The position numbers were made by a program, and so were the translations under genes. A stretch of 64,000 nucleotides of DNA, taken from Malaciobacter molluscorum LMG 25693 (GTDB lineage Bacteria; Campylobacterota; Campylobacteria; Campylobacterales; Arcobacteraceae). Each line of letters begins with the position of its first letter. Position 1 is the stretch's first letter. The notes under the pieces are model-generated. The model ran no database searches. It saw only the letters and a program-made list of their open reading frames with translations, and was not told the origin of the DNA. The stretch lies in the NCBI RefSeq assembly GCF_003544935.1, contig NZ_CP032098.1:2418001-2482000 (forward strand), written 5' to 3'. Positions 22,789-30,076 of this stretch are shown here, in pieces.

Positions 22789-22796
22789 TATTTTAA
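22763..22796. terminator. Bidirectional hairpin containing both convergent stop codons
   Basis: A 14-base stem (nine perfect pairs around ATACTACTT / AAGTAGTAT, one G-U, four more A-T pairs) with a six-base loop contains the methyltransferase stop (22786-22788) and the DUF779 stop (22793-22795). An eight-T run follows on the plus strand. Confidence 0.65.
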
Positions 22797-23170
22797 GATT
22801 CAATTTTTTTTAATTCTTCATACTCTTCATCTGTAAAAATTCTAGATTTAGTAATAAATTGATAACCATAATCTATTTCTAAAGAGAAAGAATTACCAAA
22901 TGCAGCACTCTCTTCTTTTACATCAATTGTAATCTCAGAATGCCTAAAATATTCAAATTGATCTTTATCTATAAAAAATTCACAACCACAAATTTCACCT
23001 AATTTTACATTTCTACTAGGTACATAAAAATCATCTTTTTCATAACACATTGGTGCTGTACCATCACAACAACCACCACTTTGATTAAAAACAAGTTCTC
23101 CATGTTTTTGTTTTATCATCTCTACAACTTCTTTTGCTTTTTGTGTTACTTTTACTCTTTGTACACTCAT
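22793..23170 (-). CDS. DUF779 family protein
   Basis: This is a 125-residue cytoplasmic protein of a family that typically sits beside NAD-dependent aldehyde dehydrogenases, as here. Cysteines are prominent: SGGCCDGTAPMCY (about 31-43) and an ICGCEF segment. The end, an SLEIDYGYQFITKSRIF stretch, is conserved-looking. The role is unknown; a metal-binding or folding-helper role for the dehydrogenase is speculation. The gene lies 63 bases after ald with a 12-base inverted repeat in between. Confidence 0.85.
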   Translation of the reverse strand: MSVQRVKVTQKAKEVVEMIKQKHGELVFNQSGGCCDGTAPMCYEKDDFYVPSRNVKLGEICGCEFFIDKDQFEYFRHSEITIDVKEESAAFGNSFSLEIDYGYQFITKSRIFTDEEYEELKKIES

Positions 23171-23233: not shown

Positions 23234-24730
23234 TTAAAAGAACCCTAAAGCTTTTGTATCATATGAAGTTAGAATATTTTTATTTTGTCTATAAGAGTTC
23301 AACATCATCATATGAGTTTCTCTACCGATACCTGATTTTTTGTACCCACCAAATGATGCATGTGAAGGATAAATATGGTAACAATTTACCCAAACTCTAC
23401 CAGCTTCAATTGCTCTACTTACTTTATGTAATTGGTGTGCATTTCTTGACCATAAACCAGAACCTAATCCATAAACTGTATCATTTGCAATAGCGATTGC
23501 TTCTTCTTCATCTTTAAAAGTAGTAACTGCAAGAACAGGTCCAAAAATCTCTTCTTGGAAAATTCTCATTTTATTATGCCCTTTAAAGATAGTTGGTTTA
23601 ATATAATTTCCTTTAGGGAAAGTTTTACTAGTGTACTCTTCTCCACCAATTAAACATTCAGCACCCTCTTCTTTACCAATTTTCATATATTCTAAAATTT
23701 TTTCTTTTTGATTAACTGAAGCTTGTGCTCCCATCATATTTGATTCATCAAGTGGATTATCTTGAGTGATTTTTGCTACTCTTTCTAATACTCTTTTCAT
23801 AAATGGTTCATAAATTGATTCTTGAATTAATGCTCTTGAAGGGCAAGTACAAACTTCACCAGAATTAAATGCAAATAAAACTAAACCTTCAATTGCTTTA
23901 TCAAAAAATTCATCATCTTCATCCATAATTGATTCAAAGAAAATATTTGGAGATTTACCACCAAGCTCAAGTGTTGAAGGAATAATATTTTCAGTTGCAT
24001 ATTTCATAATTAATTGACCAGTAGTTGTTTCACCTGTAAAAGCTACTTTTTTTACATCTGGATGAGTTGCTAATGCTTTACCAATTTTTCCTCCTGCACC
24101 ATTAATAATATTAATAGTTCCTTTTGGTAATACATCTTGAATAGTTTCCATTAAAAGTAAAATTGACATTGGAGTAGCACTTGCTGGTTTTAACACAATA
24201 CAATTTCCAGCTGCTAATGCAGGAGCTAATTTCCAAGCTGCCATTAATAAAGGAAAGTTCCATGGAATAATTTGTGCTACTACACCATATGGTTCTTTAA
24301 TTTCTTGAGAAACAGTATTTTCATCTAAATCAGCAATAGTCCCAGCTTCACCTCTAATAACAGAAGCAAAATATCTAAAATGATCAACTACTAAAGGTAA
24401 ATCTGCATTTAAAGTCTCTCTAACTGTTTTACCATTATCTAATGTTTCAGCAACTGCAAGAGCTTCTAAATTAGCTTCAATTGCATCTGCAACTTTATTT
24501 AACATTTTACTTCTTTCTATAACAGAAGCATGTTTATATGTTTCAAATGCTTTTTTAGCTGCTGTTACTGCTAAATCTACATCTTCTTCATTAGATCTTG
24601 GAATCATAGTTAATGGTTCTCCATCAACAGGCGAAAGATTTTCAAAGTATTCTCCACTTTTTGGAGCAATCCATTCTCCCCCAATAAAATTTTCATATTG
24701 TTTTTTAAATGTCGGTCTAGAATGTATCAT
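23234..24730 (-). CDS. NAD-dependent aldehyde dehydrogenase (acetaldehyde-type)
   Basis: It oxidises aldehydes to acids in the cytoplasm. The 498 residues match the ExaC/AldB group. Visible are the IIPWNFP segment, the GGKSPN motif with catalytic E255 and the nucleophile in GEVCTCPSR (C294, with a second C296), plus the acidic insertion DEDDEFF before it. The CxCPSR signature and linkage to DUF779 favour small aldehydes such as acetaldehyde. A minus-strand TAGAAT -10 at 24767-24772 lies 37 bases before the ATG; 11-bp spaced TAGC boxes replace its -35. Confidence 0.93.
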   Translation of the reverse strand: MIHSRPTFKKQYENFIGGEWIAPKSGEYFENLSPVDGEPLTMIPRSNEEDVDLAVTAAKKAFETYKHASVIERSKMLNKVADAIEANLEALAVAETLDNGKTVRETLNADLPLVVDHFRYFASVIRGEAGTIADLDENTVSQEIKEPYGVVAQIIPWNFPLLMAAWKLAPALAAGNCIVLKPASATPMSILLLMETIQDVLPKGTINIINGAGGKIGKALATHPDVKKVAFTGETTTGQLIMKYATENIIPSTLELGGKSPNIFFESIMDEDDEFFDKAIEGLVLFAFNSGEVCTCPSRALIQESIYEPFMKRVLERVAKITQDNPLDESNMMGAQASVNQKEKILEYMKIGKEEGAECLIGGEEYTSKTFPKGNYIKPTIFKGHNKMRIFQEEIFGPVLAVTTFKDEEEAIAIANDTVYGLGSGLWSRNAHQLHKVSRAIEAGRVWVNCYHIYPSHASFGGYKKSGIGRETHMMMLNSYRQNKNILTSYDTKALGFF

Positions 24731-24766
24731 TTTGTTTATCCTTTTTATTTTGATTTACATTTAAGA

Positions 24767-24772
24767 ATTCTA
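24767..24772 (-). promoter_or_regulatory. Candidate -10 box for ald
   Basis: TGTAGAAT on the minus strand (5/6 match to TATAAT with an extended TG). The predicted -35 position falls on the TAGC repeat array, as expected for an activator-dependent promoter. Confidence 0.45.
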
Positions 24773-24783
24773 CATGAGAAATA

Positions 24784-24820
24784 TAGCGTGAGTTTAGCAA
24801 TAAAATAGCATAAAAATAGC
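24784..24820. promoter_or_regulatory. Four TAGC boxes in exact 11-bp phase (regulator binding array)
   Basis: TAGC begins at 24784, 24795, 24806 and 24817, each 11 bp apart, so all face one side of the helix. The third and fourth boxes (24802-24820) match a copy at 28899-28917 in 18 of 19 bases. Direct repeats with 11-bp spacing are typical of PhoB/OmpR-family sites, and such a regulator is encoded at 26808. Confidence 0.65.
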
Positions 24821-24909
24821 GTAACTAAAAGTCCCATTTTATAGGTATTTGAGAAGCCAGTAATTAATATTTTTTTATATTTTTCTTTTTTTTATGATAA
24901 AATCTATCT

Positions 24910-26811
24910 ATGAAAACATACAATTATAGTATTGATAATCAAAATATCCAGCAAATAATAGATTTTAATAAATTTAAAAAAGAGAAGAATATTCTTATTC
25001 AAATTTTTTGTGGAGAATCACAAAACAAATTTGATTCAATTTTAAAAACTTTGACAACAAATCTTCCACAAGCAATTTGCATAGGTTCTACTACAGATGG
25101 AGAAATTCATGAATCTTATGTAACAACTTTTAATACAATTATTTCAATTTCTATTTTTAAAAATACAAAAATCAATCATACTTATGTTGAAGGAACTAAC
25201 TCTTTTGAAAATGGACAAAAAATTGCAAAAGAATTAATAAATGAAAAAACTAAACTTCTTATACTTTTTACAGATGGTATAAAAACTAATGGTGAAGAGT
25301 TTTTAAAAGGAGTAGAGAGTATAAATAAAGATACAATTATATGTGGAGGAATGGCTGGAGATAATAGTGAGTTTAAACAAACATATATTTCAAGCCAAGA
25401 TAAAATCATAAAATTTGGTGCAGTTGCAGTATCTCTTAATTCTGATATTTTAAAAATTTTTAATGATTATAGATTTAATTGGATTCCTATTGGAATTGAA
25501 CATACAATTAATGAAGTAAAAAACAATAGAATATATAGTATTTCAAATATGAATCCAACAAGATTTTATGCAAAATATTTAGGTGAAGATGTAGCAAAAC
25601 ATCTACCTTCTACAGGAATAGAGTTTCCCTTAATTATAAAAAATAAATCTTTATCAACAGCAAGAGCAGTAATAAAAAAGCATGAAGATGGAACACTTAG
25701 TTTTACAGGTAATTTTAAAAAAGGAGATATTGTAAAATTAGGATTTGGGAATGCTGAAACTATAATGCAAGATCCAATAAAACAGATAAAAAAAGCTCTT
25801 AATATTTTAAAACCTGAAACTTTCTTTTTATACTCTTGTATGGCAAGAAGAAGATATATGCAAAATTTTATAAAAGCAGAAATTGAGCCATTTAGTAATA
25901 TTGCACCAACAAGTGGTTTTTTTACATATGCTGAATTTTTTCATAATAATGGTTATAATGAACTTCTAAATCAATCTTTGACAATTGTTGCATTAAGTGA
26001 ACATGAAGAGATTCCCAAACATATTGAATTAGAACATATTAATACAGATGGTGAATATGCAAGAACAATAAAAGCATTAACACACTTAGTTGAACAATCA
26101 TCAATTGACTATGATTTACAAACTCAAAAATTAAATAAGCAAAAAAAATATTCAAATAGTTTATTAGCTTCACAAAAACAGTTTTTAAGGTATGTAGTTC
26201 ATGAAACAAATACACCATTATCTGTTATTATGAGTAATATTGAACTATATGAGATGCAATATGGTAAAAATAACTACATTTCAAATATTGAAGTAGCAAT
26301 GAAAAATATATCTTCTATATATGATGACTTAAGCTTTTTAATTAAAAAAGATCAATTAGTTTATAACAAAATCAAAATAGATTTAGTTGATTATATAAGA
26401 AGTAGAATAGATTTTTTCTCACAAGTTGCCTCACAAGTAAAATCAAACTTTATATTAACATCTAATTGCGATAATATGCCTATATTTTTCAATGAGACAA
26501 AACTTCAAAGAATTATAGATAATAATTTGACAAATGCCATAAAATATACTTTTGAAAAAGAGGATATTTATATAAATTTAATAAAAAAACAAAATGATTA
26601 TATATTTAGTATTTCAAGTCACTCAAGTATTATTCAAGATCCTAAAAAGATTTTTGAAGAGTATTATAGAGAAGAGAATACCCAAGAAGGCTTTGGATTG
26701 GGGTTAAATTTAGTAAAAAGAGTTTGTGAAGAAGAAAATGTACATATAGATGTAATCTCAAATGAAAACTCAACATGCTTTACTTATACTTTTAAAGGAG
26801 TTAAAAAGTGA
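24910..26811 (+). CDS. FIST-domain sensor histidine kinase
   Basis: This is a cytoplasmic kinase of 633 residues with no membrane helix. The FIST N and C sensor domains (about 25-215 and 220-365) show the CIGSTTDGEI, CGGMAGDN and LYSCMARR motifs. A short coiled link leads to HisKA with the phospho-acceptor H431 (VVHETNTPL) and a HATPase domain with N538/N539/N542 and a GFGLGL box (594-599). FIST domains are thought to bind small molecules. It overlaps the regulator gene by ATGA. No SD precedes the ATG, which is unusual here. Confidence 0.92.
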   Translation: MKTYNYSIDNQNIQQIIDFNKFKKEKNILIQIFCGESQNKFDSILKTLTTNLPQAICIGSTTDGEIHESYVTTFNTIISISIFKNTKINHTYVEGTNSFENGQKIAKELINEKTKLLILFTDGIKTNGEEFLKGVESINKDTIICGGMAGDNSEFKQTYISSQDKIIKFGAVAVSLNSDILKIFNDYRFNWIPIGIEHTINEVKNNRIYSISNMNPTRFYAKYLGEDVAKHLPSTGIEFPLIIKNKSLSTARAVIKKHEDGTLSFTGNFKKGDIVKLGFGNAETIMQDPIKQIKKALNILKPETFFLYSCMARRRYMQNFIKAEIEPFSNIAPTSGFFTYAEFFHNNGYNELLNQSLTIVALSEHEEIPKHIELEHINTDGEYARTIKALTHLVEQSSIDYDLQTQKLNKQKKYSNSLLASQKQFLRYVVHETNTPLSVIMSNIELYEMQYGKNNYISNIEVAMKNISSIYDDLSFLIKKDQLVYNKIKIDLVDYIRSRIDFFSQVASQVKSNFILTSNCDNMPIFFNETKLQRIIDNNLTNAIKYTFEKEDIYINLIKKQNDYIFSISSHSSIIQDPKKIFEEYYREENTQEGFGLGLNLVKRVCEEENVHIDVISNENSTCFTYTFKGVKK

Positions 26812-27467
26812 AAATACTGCTTCTTGAAGATGACATTATGTTAAATAATGCTATCAAACAATATTTGGAATCATTAGGTCATGCAATGATTTCTACAAGA
26901 GATGGAAAAACGTGTTTAGATATTTTAGAAGATAATAAATTTGATTTATTAATATTAGATATAAATGTTCCACATGTAAATGGATTAACAATTTTAGAAG
27001 AATTAAATAAAAAGAAAAAAGTAATACCTACTATATTTATATCTGCATTAATTGATATAGAAGATATATCAAAAGCTTTTGATATGGGTTGCTATGATTA
27101 TTTAAAAAAACCTTTTCATTTAAAAGAGTTGCATTTAAGAATAAATAGACTTCTACAAAATAAAATAGTACCTTTACAACATAAAAGATTATCTAAAAAT
27201 TATAGTTTTGATTTGGAAACAACGACACTATATTTTAATAATGAACCGCATATTTTACCTAAAAGACAACTTTTAATTATCTCATTATTAGCAAAAAATA
27301 GAAGTTTAGTTGTTAATTATGATATGTTTAGGACTTATGCATATGAAGATGATGAAATTGATATAGCAACAATTAGAGCAGAAGTAAATAGAGTAAAAAA
27401 AGTTTTAAAAGAAGATTTCATTATAAATGTAAGAGGTGTAGGATATATGGTTGAAAGACCAAATTAA
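26808..27467 (+). CDS. OmpR/PhoB-family response regulator
   Basis: This 219-residue regulator has a receiver domain with D8/D9, phospho-acceptor D51, S79 and K101, then a winged-helix DNA-binding domain (about 125-216) ending in VRGVGYMVE. Its start overlaps the FIST kinase stop, so the pair is one operon. OmpR-type winged helices bind direct repeats with 10-11 bp spacing, which matches the TAGC arrays at 24784 and 28903. That link is inference. Confidence 0.95.
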   Translation: MKILLLEDDIMLNNAIKQYLESLGHAMISTRDGKTCLDILEDNKFDLLILDINVPHVNGLTILEELNKKKKVIPTIFISALIDIEDISKAFDMGCYDYLKKPFHLKELHLRINRLLQNKIVPLQHKRLSKNYSFDLETTTLYFNNEPHILPKRQLLIISLLAKNRSLVVNYDMFRTYAYEDDEIDIATIRAEVNRVKKVLKEDFIINVRGVGYMVERPN

Positions 27468-27546
27468 ACAATTTATTACAAATATAATTTGATTTATAAT
27501 AAAGAATAATTTGATAAAATTTAAAAACTTTAAAAAAAGGTTTTCT

Positions 27547-27747
27547 ATGCAATTAATAATAAATGGTGAAACAAAAGAATTTTCTGAAAATATGTCTTTA
27601 AAGCAAATTATGCAATCTTTAAAAATAGAAGAAAAAGTAATGGCGGCGGCTGTTAATATGGAAATTATAAAAAAAGATGATTGGGATAGATTTACACCAA
27701 ATGATAAAGATAAATTAGAGTTACTACAATTTGTAGGTGGTGGTTGA
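27547..27747 (+). CDS. thiS: Sulfur carrier protein ThiS
   Basis: This ubiquitin-like protein carries sulfur for thiazole (thiamine) synthesis. From ATG 27547, with an AAAGG SD, it has 66 residues and ends in FVGGG, giving the di-glycine tail that is adenylated and thiocarboxylated. An ATG at 27511 would add 12 unlikely residues. No thiG, thiH or thiF lies next to it. Confidence 0.92.
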   Translation: MQLIINGETKEFSENMSLKQIMQSLKIEEKVMAAAVNMEIIKKDDWDRFTPNDKDKLELLQFVGGG

Positions 27748-27763
27748 TTTAAAGGCTACTATT

Positions 27764-28096
27764 TTGAGTAAACAAAAAGGTGACTTTGCTGAGAATAAAG
27801 CAGTTTTATTTTTAGAAGAGAGAAATTATAAAATTGTACAAAGAAACTTTTATGCTAAAAAACTAGGTGAAATTGATATTATTTGTAAAAAAGACAATAC
27901 ATATCATTTTATAGAAGTTAAATCTGCAAATGATTATGATACAGCTATTAATAACATTACAAAAAGTAAATTGTCTAAATTAAAAAGAAGTATTAATTAC
28001 TATTTACAACTTAATAATTTAGATGTTGCTTTTTGTATAGATGCGATTATTGTAATTGATGAAGATATTGAACATCTAGAGAATATTACTTTTTAA
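27764..28096 (+). CDS. YraN/UPF0102 family endonuclease-like protein
   Basis: This is a small protein with a restriction-endonuclease-like core: an N-terminal GDFAE segment, then LGEIDIIC and FIEVKSA, the usual acidic and E-x-K metal-site strands. A GTG at 27737 overlapping thiS is possible, but the TTG at 27764 has an AAAGG SD eight bases upstream and gives the usual MSKQKGD-type start (110 residues), so I choose it. The function is unknown. Its stop overlaps the convergent DUF502 gene by 11 bases. Confidence 0.85.
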   Translation: MSKQKGDFAENKAVLFLEERNYKIVQRNFYAKKLGEIDIICKKDNTYHFIEVKSANDYDTAINNITKSKLSKLKRSINYYLQLNNLDVAFCIDAIIVIDEDIEHLENITF

Positions 28097-28754
28097 GATA
28101 CTCTTCTAAAGAAGGAAACTCTTCAATACTTTTTGGCTCTACATTTAAAATATCTGCTAAAGATTTTACTCCCATTGAAAGTAAATATTGTAAATTAGTA
28201 TCAAACGTTGCCTCTTCAATAATAAATATTTTATCTTTTGGTACTTCAAACATAAATCCACCATTTGGAATTGGAGTCATAGATAAAGTTACAGTATAAT
28301 GATCTTTTACTATACTTTCTTTAGTTGAATACATAAGACCTATGTTAAAACCTTCATTTGTAAATCCTTTAATTAATACAACTAAAACTTTTTTCTCACC
28401 CGATTTAGAAGTATTAAAAATATTTACTAATTCTTTTATTGTTTGATATCCTGGAATTTTAGAATATAACTTTTGAATAAAATCACCTAAACTTGTTTCA
28501 ACAAATATTCCCACAATATATGCAATAAGTGCTAAAATCACTATTCCAAATAGTGTCCATAAAAATGGATGATGTAAAGGATTAATTCCTATAAGTTCAA
28601 ACATATTTTTTGTAAGTGTATTTATATTATCATATATCCAAACAATTATTAATGTAATTGCAATAATTGGAGCCAACCAAAACAATCCTTTTAAAATAAC
28701 AGTAAAAGTATGATCTTTCCCATGAGCAAAATAATTTTTTATATTTTCAAGCAT
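28086..28754 (-). CDS. DUF502 family membrane protein
   Basis: The 222-residue protein has two N-terminal membrane helices (about 17-37 and 48-72) and a soluble remainder with the PIPNGGFMFEVPKD motif typical of DUF502. The function is unknown. ATG 28754 follows AAGGA at good distance; the upstream ATG at 28772 reads straight through that SD, so I take 28754. It is the only gene on this strand here. The gap to the divergent bioF-like gene holds a hairpin and a regulator-like repeat. Confidence 0.85.
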   Translation of the reverse strand: MLENIKNYFAHGKDHTFTVILKGLFWLAPIIAITLIIVWIYDNINTLTKNMFELIGINPLHHPFLWTLFGIVILALIAYIVGIFVETSLGDFIQKLYSKIPGYQTIKELVNIFNTSKSGEKKVLVVLIKGFTNEGFNIGLMYSTKESIVKDHYTVTLSMTPIPNGGFMFEVPKDKIFIIEEATFDTNLQYLLSMGVKSLADILNVEPKSIEEFPSLEEYLKK

Positions 28755-28818
28755 TCCTCTTCCTTTATTCATTTATTATAACAAATAAAAGTGAAGAGTG
28801 AATAAAAAAGATTTGTAA

Positions 28819-28849
28819 AAGAAGTCGTTAGAAAATCTAACGACTTCTT
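28819..28849. repeat. Orphan perfect hairpin in the DUF502/bioF divergent region
   Basis: Arms AAGAAGTCGTTAGA / TCTAACGACTTCTT (14 bases) with a three-base loop form one of the strongest stems in the window, yet no annotated gene ends here. T-rich sequence follows on the minus strand (to about 28800), so it could terminate an unseen minus-strand transcript. Confidence 0.6.
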
Positions 28850-28898
28850 ATTAAGTGAAGGAGTACTGATTTTAAGTACAATAAAATTATATCTTCAA

Positions 28899-28917
28899 AA
28901 AATAGCATAACAATAGC
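28899..28917 (+). promoter_or_regulatory. Two-box TAGC site upstream of the bioF-like operon
   Basis: TAGC at 28903 and 28914, 11 bp apart, in a 19-base segment that differs from 24802-24820 at only one base. It lies 37 bases upstream of the TATAAT at 28955, the usual position for an OmpR-type activator. Confidence 0.6.
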
Positions 28918-28954
28918 ACTAAAAAAATTTACCATTTTTTTATATTTTTTTATA

Positions 28955-28960
28955 TATAAT
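28955..28960 (+). promoter_or_regulatory. -10 box for the bioF-like operon
   Basis: A TATAAT lies 22 bases before the TTG start, with an AGGAG SD after it. Confidence 0.6.
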
Positions 28961-28981
28961 ATTAAAATTTTAGGAGATATT

Positions 28982-30076
28982 TTGTACTCTAAAGAATTAA
29001 ATTCTATAAAAAAATCAAATAGATTAAGAACACGAGAAATCTTTGATAATTCTCTTGTAGACTTAGCTTCCAATGACTACTTAGGACTTACTACAAATAA
29101 ACAACTTTTTGAAGATGCTTACAAAAGAGTATTACAAGAAAATTATACAGGCCCTAAATCTTCACAACTTGTAAATGGTTATAACTCTATACATAAAGAA
29201 TTTGAAAAACTTTTATGTAAAGCCAATAAATTTGAAGATGCAATAACTGTTGGTTCTGGTTTTTTAGCAAATATTTCAATGATTGAAGCATTAGTTAGAA
29301 AAGGTGATAGATTATTTATTGATGAAGATTATCATGCAAGTGGAATATTGGCTACTAAACTTCTTGAAAAAAATCAAGTTATTTTATTTGATCATAATAA
29401 TATTGAAGATTTAAAAAATAAATACAAAAAGTTTAGTAGTAAAAAAAGAAATATTATTGCTATTGAAGGTGTTTATTCAATGCAAGGAGATTTAGCAAAT
29501 AAACAAATATTTAACTTTGCTGATGATACTAACTCACTTTTGATTGTTGATGAAGCACATTCAAGTGGAGTTTTAGGTGATAACTTACTTGGAATATTTG
29601 ATTTTTATAAAATAAAACCAAATCAAAACCATATAAAAATGGGTACTTTAGGTAAAGCATATGGGAGTTATGGCGCATATATTTTAGCAAGTTCTCATAT
29701 AATTGAATACTTACAAAATAGGGCTAAAGCAATTATTTATACAACTGCACCTTCACTTTTTGATATATCTTTAGCTTTACAATCTTTAAAATATATTTTA
29801 GCAAATCAAGAACTTATAAAATCTAAGATTCTTAAAAACTTAAATATAGTAAAAGATATTTTGAATATTAAATCAAATAGTCTAATTATTCCAATAAATA
29901 TTGGTAATAATAAAAAAGTAATTGAAATTCAAACAAAATTAAAAGAAAAAGGCTTTTTAGTGGGTGCTATTAGACAACCAACAGTAAATAGTGCAATTAT
30001 TAGATTAATTGCAAAAATTGATATTAAAGAAGATGATTTAATAGAAGTTTGCCAATTTTTAAAGGAAAATAGATGA
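28982..30076 (+). CDS. bioF: BioF-like alpha-oxoamine synthase (8-amino-7-oxononanoate synthase)
   Basis: This is a PLP enzyme of 364 residues in the family that condenses an acyl-CoA or acyl-ACP with an amino acid; BioF makes the biotin precursor. Seen are ASNDYLGL, the VNGYNSIHKEFE and VGSGFLANISM regions, IVDEAHSSGVLG and the PLP lysine in TLGKAYGSYGAY. The start is TTG with AGGAG seven bases upstream. No other bio gene is adjacent, so another family member cannot be excluded. It leads a five-gene run ending with mqnE. Confidence 0.8.
   Translation: MYSKELNSIKKSNRLRTREIFDNSLVDLASNDYLGLTTNKQLFEDAYKRVLQENYTGPKSSQLVNGYNSIHKEFEKLLCKANKFEDAITVGSGFLANISMIEALVRKGDRLFIDEDYHASGILATKLLEKNQVILFDHNNIEDLKNKYKKFSSKKRNIIAIEGVYSMQGDLANKQIFNFADDTNSLLIVDEAHSSGVLGDNLLGIFDFYKIKPNQNHIKMGTLGKAYGSYGAYILASSHIIEYLQNRAKAIIYTTAPSLFDISLALQSLKYILANQELIKSKILKNLNIVKDILNIKSNSLIIPINIGNNKKVIEIQTKLKEKGFLVGAIRQPTVNSAIIRLIAKIDIKEDDLIEVCQFLKENR

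Follow-up and report, generated by a model that had tools for sequence, protein, structure and literature searches.

A soluble FIST-domain sensor and its response regulator facing an aldehyde dehydrogenase gene in Malaciobacter molluscorum, a predicted aldehyde-responsive two-component system

The window, a stretch of 64,000 nucleotides from the single-contig, 2.80-Mb genome of Malaciobacter molluscorum LMG 25693, carries a gene for a FIST-domain sensor and, overlapping its stop codon by 4 nt, a gene for a response regulator. The two reading frames described in the earlier note were recovered, as was their divergent placement against an aldehyde dehydrogenase gene (ald) and a DUF779 gene. The closest named relative found is Arcobacter sp. 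CECT 8985, with a sensor 82% identical. The features of the locus are given below.

22793..23170, minus strand: DUF779 protein (Pfam)
23234..24730, minus strand: NAD-type aldehyde dehydrogenase, ald (best NCBIfam model ExaC)
24767..24772, minus strand: -10 element of ald, TAGAAT, 11 nt from the closest box
24784..24820, strand not assigned: four TAGC-N7 direct repeats, recurring every 11 bp, proposed as the operator for the response regulator
24895..24903, plus strand: extended -10 element TGATAAAAT, with 6 nt between it and the kinase ATG; a leaderless start is predicted
24910..26811, plus strand: soluble FIST-FIST_C-HisKA-HATPase sensor, 633 residues (ORF call, Pfam, hydropathy)
25837-25839, 25933-25935 and 26200-26202: codons of the key sensor residues C310, E342 and H431, respectively
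26808..27467, plus strand: OmpR-family response regulator, 219 residues, receiver Asp51, GTG start (ORF call, Pfam)

The sensor matches the Pfam models FIST (118.8 bits), FIST_C (72.0 bits), HisKA (32.6 bits) and HATPase_c (47.5 bits), all above the cut-off (the gathering scores of the two FIST models are 23.2 bits for PF08495 and 28.5 bits for PF10442). Its best 19-residue Kyte-Doolittle mean is 1.39, and the protein is thus, as described before, a kinase with FIST N/C domains and no membrane helix. The regulator falls into the OmpR/PhoB class, with scores of 87.9 bits for Response_reg and 28.0 bits for Trans_reg_C, both above the cut-off. For ald the top NCBIfam model is ExaC (NF050026), at 832 bits, which is below the cut-off of 900.

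The HisKA/HATPase motifs had been called complete in the earlier note, and this holds for the H box (His431, followed by Glu432), the N box and the G2 box. It does not hold for the G1/D box (DxGxG), in place of which the window sensor reads SISSHSSIIQ. The G1/D box is missing from all 88 family sensors aligned (87 are readable at the site), and on this account the sensor lies outside the canonical HisKA kinases. Four distant FIST kinases, taken as an outgroup, have DNAGGI at the G1 position, and another kinase of the host genome (L205) has a G1 box as well, DYGCGI. Because the box is missing, signalling is possibly driven by a phosphatase activity. The BumSR system of C. jejuni resembles the window system in being a two-component system of the Campylobacterales with a cytoplasmic metabolite sensor, and BumS is reported as a sensor phosphatase without the residues for autophosphorylation (PMC11796366). 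BumS differs from the FIST sensor in having a PAS sensor and SCFA cues, and the likeness, drawn from the published description, makes a BumS-like phosphatase mode of the FIST sensor suggestive only.

The ald-sensor intergene is 179 bp long, and the phased boxes pointed out earlier are found in it as four TAGC motifs at an 11-bp spacing (positions 24784, 24795, 24806 and 24817). The three-box pattern TAGC-N7-TAGC-N7-TAGC has a single occurrence in the 2.80-Mb genome and is present in 60 of the 104 genomes of the host's family, with 0 of 104 for the reversed control. At least two exact phased boxes are found in every one of the 57 ald-linked loci of the family, and four boxes in 42 of them. At a constant distance from the first box that matches exactly, 50 ald-linked loci have a TANNNT hexamer (for example TAGAAT or TAAGAT); the remaining seven have their first exact match further along the array. 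Among the 13 unlinked loci, three of which (L049, L075 and L081) stop at contig edges, 12 have no box or one, and four boxes are found in L049, which ends at such an edge. Ten unlinked copies of the family sensor have no array.

Tandem dimers of OmpR-family regulators usually bind direct repeats with an 11-bp period that overlap the place of the -35 element. At the ald promoter no consensus -35 element was found by eye, and, as far as sequence can tell, the boxes are placed like an activator site on this promoter and are conserved. The idea that they serve the kinase gene is disfavoured: since the array ends ~90 bp before the kinase ATG and is absent at the unlinked copies, ald is the preferred target.

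A genome-wide search with two boxes and mismatches was too loose (11 sites versus 3 controls). With the composite of box and -10 element, 46 sites were obtained in the host genome at no more than one mismatch, versus 9 controls; seven sites match exactly, including one within a thiolase-like gene. The composite promoter also precedes genes that we take, by recognition, to be pta, a symporter gene, an MCP-like gene and a SoxC-like gene. A separate element of the window, at 28790-28917 on the minus strand, consists of a second box promoter (GCTA-N7-GCTA-N11-TATAAT) and then a 90-nt stretch with a strong, terminator-like hairpin (z -7.3). It also has a conserved ACUCCUUCAC stretch, is kept in L076 and L034, and may encode a small RNA that carries an anti-Shine-Dalgarno motif; an Rfam search of positions 24600-29100 gave no match.

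The lack of a Shine-Dalgarno (SD) sequence at the kinase ATG, noted earlier for the window, extends to the family, with an SD-like motif in 0 of 70 loci. The accompanying suggestion that it limits the level of the kinase is less well founded, as a leaderless start points elsewhere than simply to weak translation. In 69 of 69 loci (L075 was left out because its upstream stretch is too short) 4-7 nt separate a -10 element from the start codon of the sensor; the element is the extended form TGNTANNNT, ending 5-7 nt before the codon, in 64 loci and a plain TANNNT, ending 4-6 nt before it, in the remaining five. The shuffled-upstream control gives 1.9%. Because the -10 element hugs the start codon and no SD-like motif is present, the sensor mRNA is probably leaderless, and a simple loss of the SD sequence was rejected on the same grounds.

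The earlier note had named two things that would together refute its reading, a synteny that does not recur and a kinase mutation without effect on ald expression; the reading withstood the check on synteny. In the family, ald was found beside the kinase gene in 57 of 70 loci (sensors of >50% identity, with the distant FIST kinases L105-L115 left out), and the orthologues of other families adjoin other aldehyde-oxidising enzymes. The sensor is present in 62 and DUF779 in 63 of the 104 family genomes: both in 61, the sensor only in one, DUF779 only in two and neither in 40 (Fisher 3e-25, phylogeny not corrected). Of the 104 genomes, 31 encode a PQQ methanol/ethanol dehydrogenase (TIGR03075), and all 31 have the sensor; the dehydrogenase lies on the same contig in 21, at a distance of 4.0-11.2 kb, and on other contigs in 10. 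The PQQ alcohol dehydrogenase is found in 0 of 6 genomes of the host's genus, yet the locus is kept. Genomes of genus g2 have a further array before a porin-like gene, beside genes for PedF cytochrome c550 and a quinoprotein relay hydrolase.

In ten loci of the family the sensor comes without ald, and six of these sensors lie between unrelated housekeeping genes. Two genomes whose sensor is unlinked keep two boxes at ald, and two that have ald and no FIST sensor keep one good and one degenerate box. In L067 a paralogous sensor is divergent from a gene for phenylpyruvate/indolepyruvate decarboxylase, a producer of aldehyde. At L191:4276-5244 and L192:4042-4950 an array precedes the gene of a ~300-residue protein, and that of L192 has no Pfam or NCBIfam match. 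The distant FIST kinases of L105 and L112-L115 are encoded directly downstream of a reading frame that, by recognition in the upstream DNA, is presumably transaldolase-like.

Across the order, a FIST match is found in 174 of 348 genomes. Twenty loci outside the family (19 genomes) were picked from the best-scoring matches, not at random; four have ald-DUF779, ten a molybdenum (Mo) aldehyde oxidoreductase, two AOR and the last four none of the three. An aldehyde gene is absent from the outside locus L266, and two outside loci have only cofactor-maturation-like genes. The Mo enzyme has ~907 residues and is faced by the sensor; the one tested with an HMM scores 1594 bits against NF045668 (cut-off 1100), and the others are 86-95% identical to it. 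For the Mo enzyme, 10 of 10 promoters have the composite form GCTA-N7-GCTA-N11-TANNNT, for AOR 2 of 2, for ald 3 of 4 and for FIST-chemoreceptors 2 of 3; the 243 kb hold 19 such sites, versus 0 for the reversed controls. In the FastTree tree, which leaves out the near-identical L076, the loci with the Mo enzyme or AOR branch from within the ald loci, with weak support for some deep nodes, and this reads as a change of the enzyme with the sensor kept.

On plasmids, 10 of 25 FIST matches were opened, one of which has no annotation. Four of the nine annotated regions, on alphaproteobacterial plasmids, lie in PQQ-ADH, ald-DUF779 or glutathione-formaldehyde clusters; one is ambiguous and four have no such cluster. 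In Ruegeria sp. SCSIO 43209 the genes for PQQ-ADH, regulator, FIST, kinase, DUF779 and ald stand in one row. Aldehyde is the common denominator of the sensor neighbourhoods. FIST-FIST_C chemoreceptors were also seen, at L261:1973-3973 (Pfam) and, by similarity to L261 or by reading, at L256:2304-4304, at L259:8415-10400 and in the host genome at L002:1399-3375. In the Sulfurospirillum-like family they adjoin the FIST kinase, two of them with the same box promoter, and a function in aldehyde taxis is possible.

A comparable arrangement is the exa/ped locus of Pseudomonas, where the FIST sensor NosP and the kinase NahK/PedS1 are described beside PQQ alcohol dehydrogenases and ExaC/PedI, with a porin adjoining (PMC12997753); NosP is a FIST protein (PMC12570481). 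The Pseudomonas system has a separate FIST protein and a hybrid kinase, whereas in the window the FIST part is fused to the kinase and encoded with an OmpR-type regulator. No NO link was seen for the window sensor, and in NCBIfam its FIST part scores 69 bits with the NosP model (NF041558), short of the cut-off of 450.

Regulation of ald by the FIST pair is likely. The earlier suggestion that a metabolite of aldehyde or alcohol use is the signal is well supported by the context; that the aldehyde itself is this metabolite is what we infer, a plausible step for which the chances appear about even. On balance, and by a modest measure, we favour a soluble two-component system that responds to aldehyde, is possibly driven by a phosphatase activity and has aldehyde oxidation under its control.

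The FIST domain might instead sense another molecule of the pathway, such as an alcohol, a carboxylate, acyl-CoA or the redox state, with the aldehyde enzymes merely as the output. Box promoters do precede pta and the acetate-type symporter gene, and the cytoplasmic sensor BumS of C. jejuni is reported to detect short-chain carboxylates (PMC11796366). This reading nevertheless seems rather unlikely to us, as the neighbouring enzymes vary (NAD-ALDH, Mo-enzyme, AOR, keto-acid decarboxylase) while aldehyde is constant, and the locus persists in the genomes of the host's genus, which have no PQQ alcohol dehydrogenase.

The closest paralogue in the host genome (L203) is a dCache membrane kinase with its own OmpR-type regulator, beside an acetate-type symporter. 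The two pairs are alike in their kinase domains (44% identical), the missing G1 box, the regulator and the box, and differ in the membrane Cache sensor, the locus and the targets. The recognition helix, TIRAE-(V/I)-(N/S)-R-(V/L)-KK, is near-identical in both regulators, and with the helix and the box shared, ald could be a target of the dCache regulator as well. The box promoters of pta and of the symporter gene next to the dCache pair (L272 and L273, positions 539736 and 549868 of the host genome) are likely the acetate regulon of the paralogous regulator. It is therefore conceivable that ald is mainly under the dCache/acetate regulator through the common box, the FIST pair being a modulator or acting elsewhere, which would agree with the common recognition-helix residues, with the boxes at the pta and symporter promoters and with the weakened site retained at ald in two FIST-less genomes. 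The four-box array, however, goes together with an adjacent FIST pair and is diminished or gone in the pair's absence from the locus, and we consider this arrangement unlikely.

A NosP-like haem or NO sensor fused to a kinase, with ald as one of several NO or stress outputs, is improbable. In its favour, haem or NO binding is reported for NosP and CdpA (PMC8846402), and at least 97% of the sensor family have His198. The FIST part matches the NosP model, but with a score far under the cut-off, while no NO or haem genes were seen by eye around the loci and the nosP gene of Pseudomonas itself lies in an ethanol-oxidation cluster (PMC12997753).

As to the aldehyde as the signal, Cys310, Arg313 and Glu342 are kept without exception across the 88 family sensors. 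Of 18 diverse FIST domains, 17 have the Cys and all 18 the Arg and the Glu, with a Cys-Glu spacing of 30-36. The cysteine is thus general to FIST and alone does not single out aldehyde. To our knowledge, few signals of FIST domains are known. Searches of the open-licence PMC literature gave no proposal of an aldehyde as a bacterial FIST ligand; the ligands described for bacterial FIST domains are NO and haem (PMC8846402). In the human FIST protein FBXO22, aldehydes are reported to form a hemithioacetal with Cys326, to bind the Cys-Glu pair covalently and reversibly and to outperform other electrophiles, and the E362A change abolishes the effect (PMC13316043, PMC11208438). FBXO22 and the sensor are both FIST proteins with a Cys-Glu pair, a likeness of residue type and spacing only (36 in FBXO22, from 326 to 362, and in the Azospirillum and Legionella FIST, 32 in the window sensor). 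PDB sequence searches gave no FIST structure to align with, whether started from the FIST part of the window sensor, from three profiles or from two distant FIST proteins; an AlphaFold model from three sequences had a pLDDT of 41.7 and was set aside. FBXO22 differs in being a substrate receptor of a ubiquitin ligase, studied with synthetic degraders, and the available parts of the reports describe no natural aldehyde role for it (PMC13316043, PMC11208438). The proposed cysteine chemistry is a bold guess, somewhat less likely than not.

In the mechanism that we propose, the FIST domain would respond to aldehyde from alcohol oxidation (in the species with PQQ-ADH) or from other sources, most simply through a reversible hemithioacetal at Cys310, assisted by Glu342. 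Another donor would phosphorylate the regulator, and with aldehyde bound the sensor would remove the phosphate less, comparable to BumS; acetyl phosphate would be a natural candidate donor in the pathway. Dimers of the phosphorylated regulator would bind the TAGC array in tandem, and from there recruit RNA polymerase to the ald promoter with its lack of a clear -35 element. The kinase gene would have its own promoter, and since this is box-free and leaderless, the level of the sensor is probably low and constant.

A wider and still more speculative view, which we hold only tentatively, is that FIST is an ancient aldehyde-sensing domain in which the signature Cys-Arg-Glu traps aldehydes in the form of hemithioacetals, and that bacteria couple it to kinases or chemoreceptors beside an aldehyde-burning enzyme. 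The reactivity of FBXO22 towards degraders would then be a relic or a present use, and the NO and haem effects of NosP would be secondary or derived. The model makes a specific prediction, the aldehyde at C310/E342, and comes with a defined regulator site, the TAGC-N7 repeats at N11 from the -10 element, and with a conserved promoter rule. If true, bacteria would have in the FIST pair a two-component system that detects a toxic intermediate in the cytoplasm, and this sensor would be tied to a human drug-discovery target.
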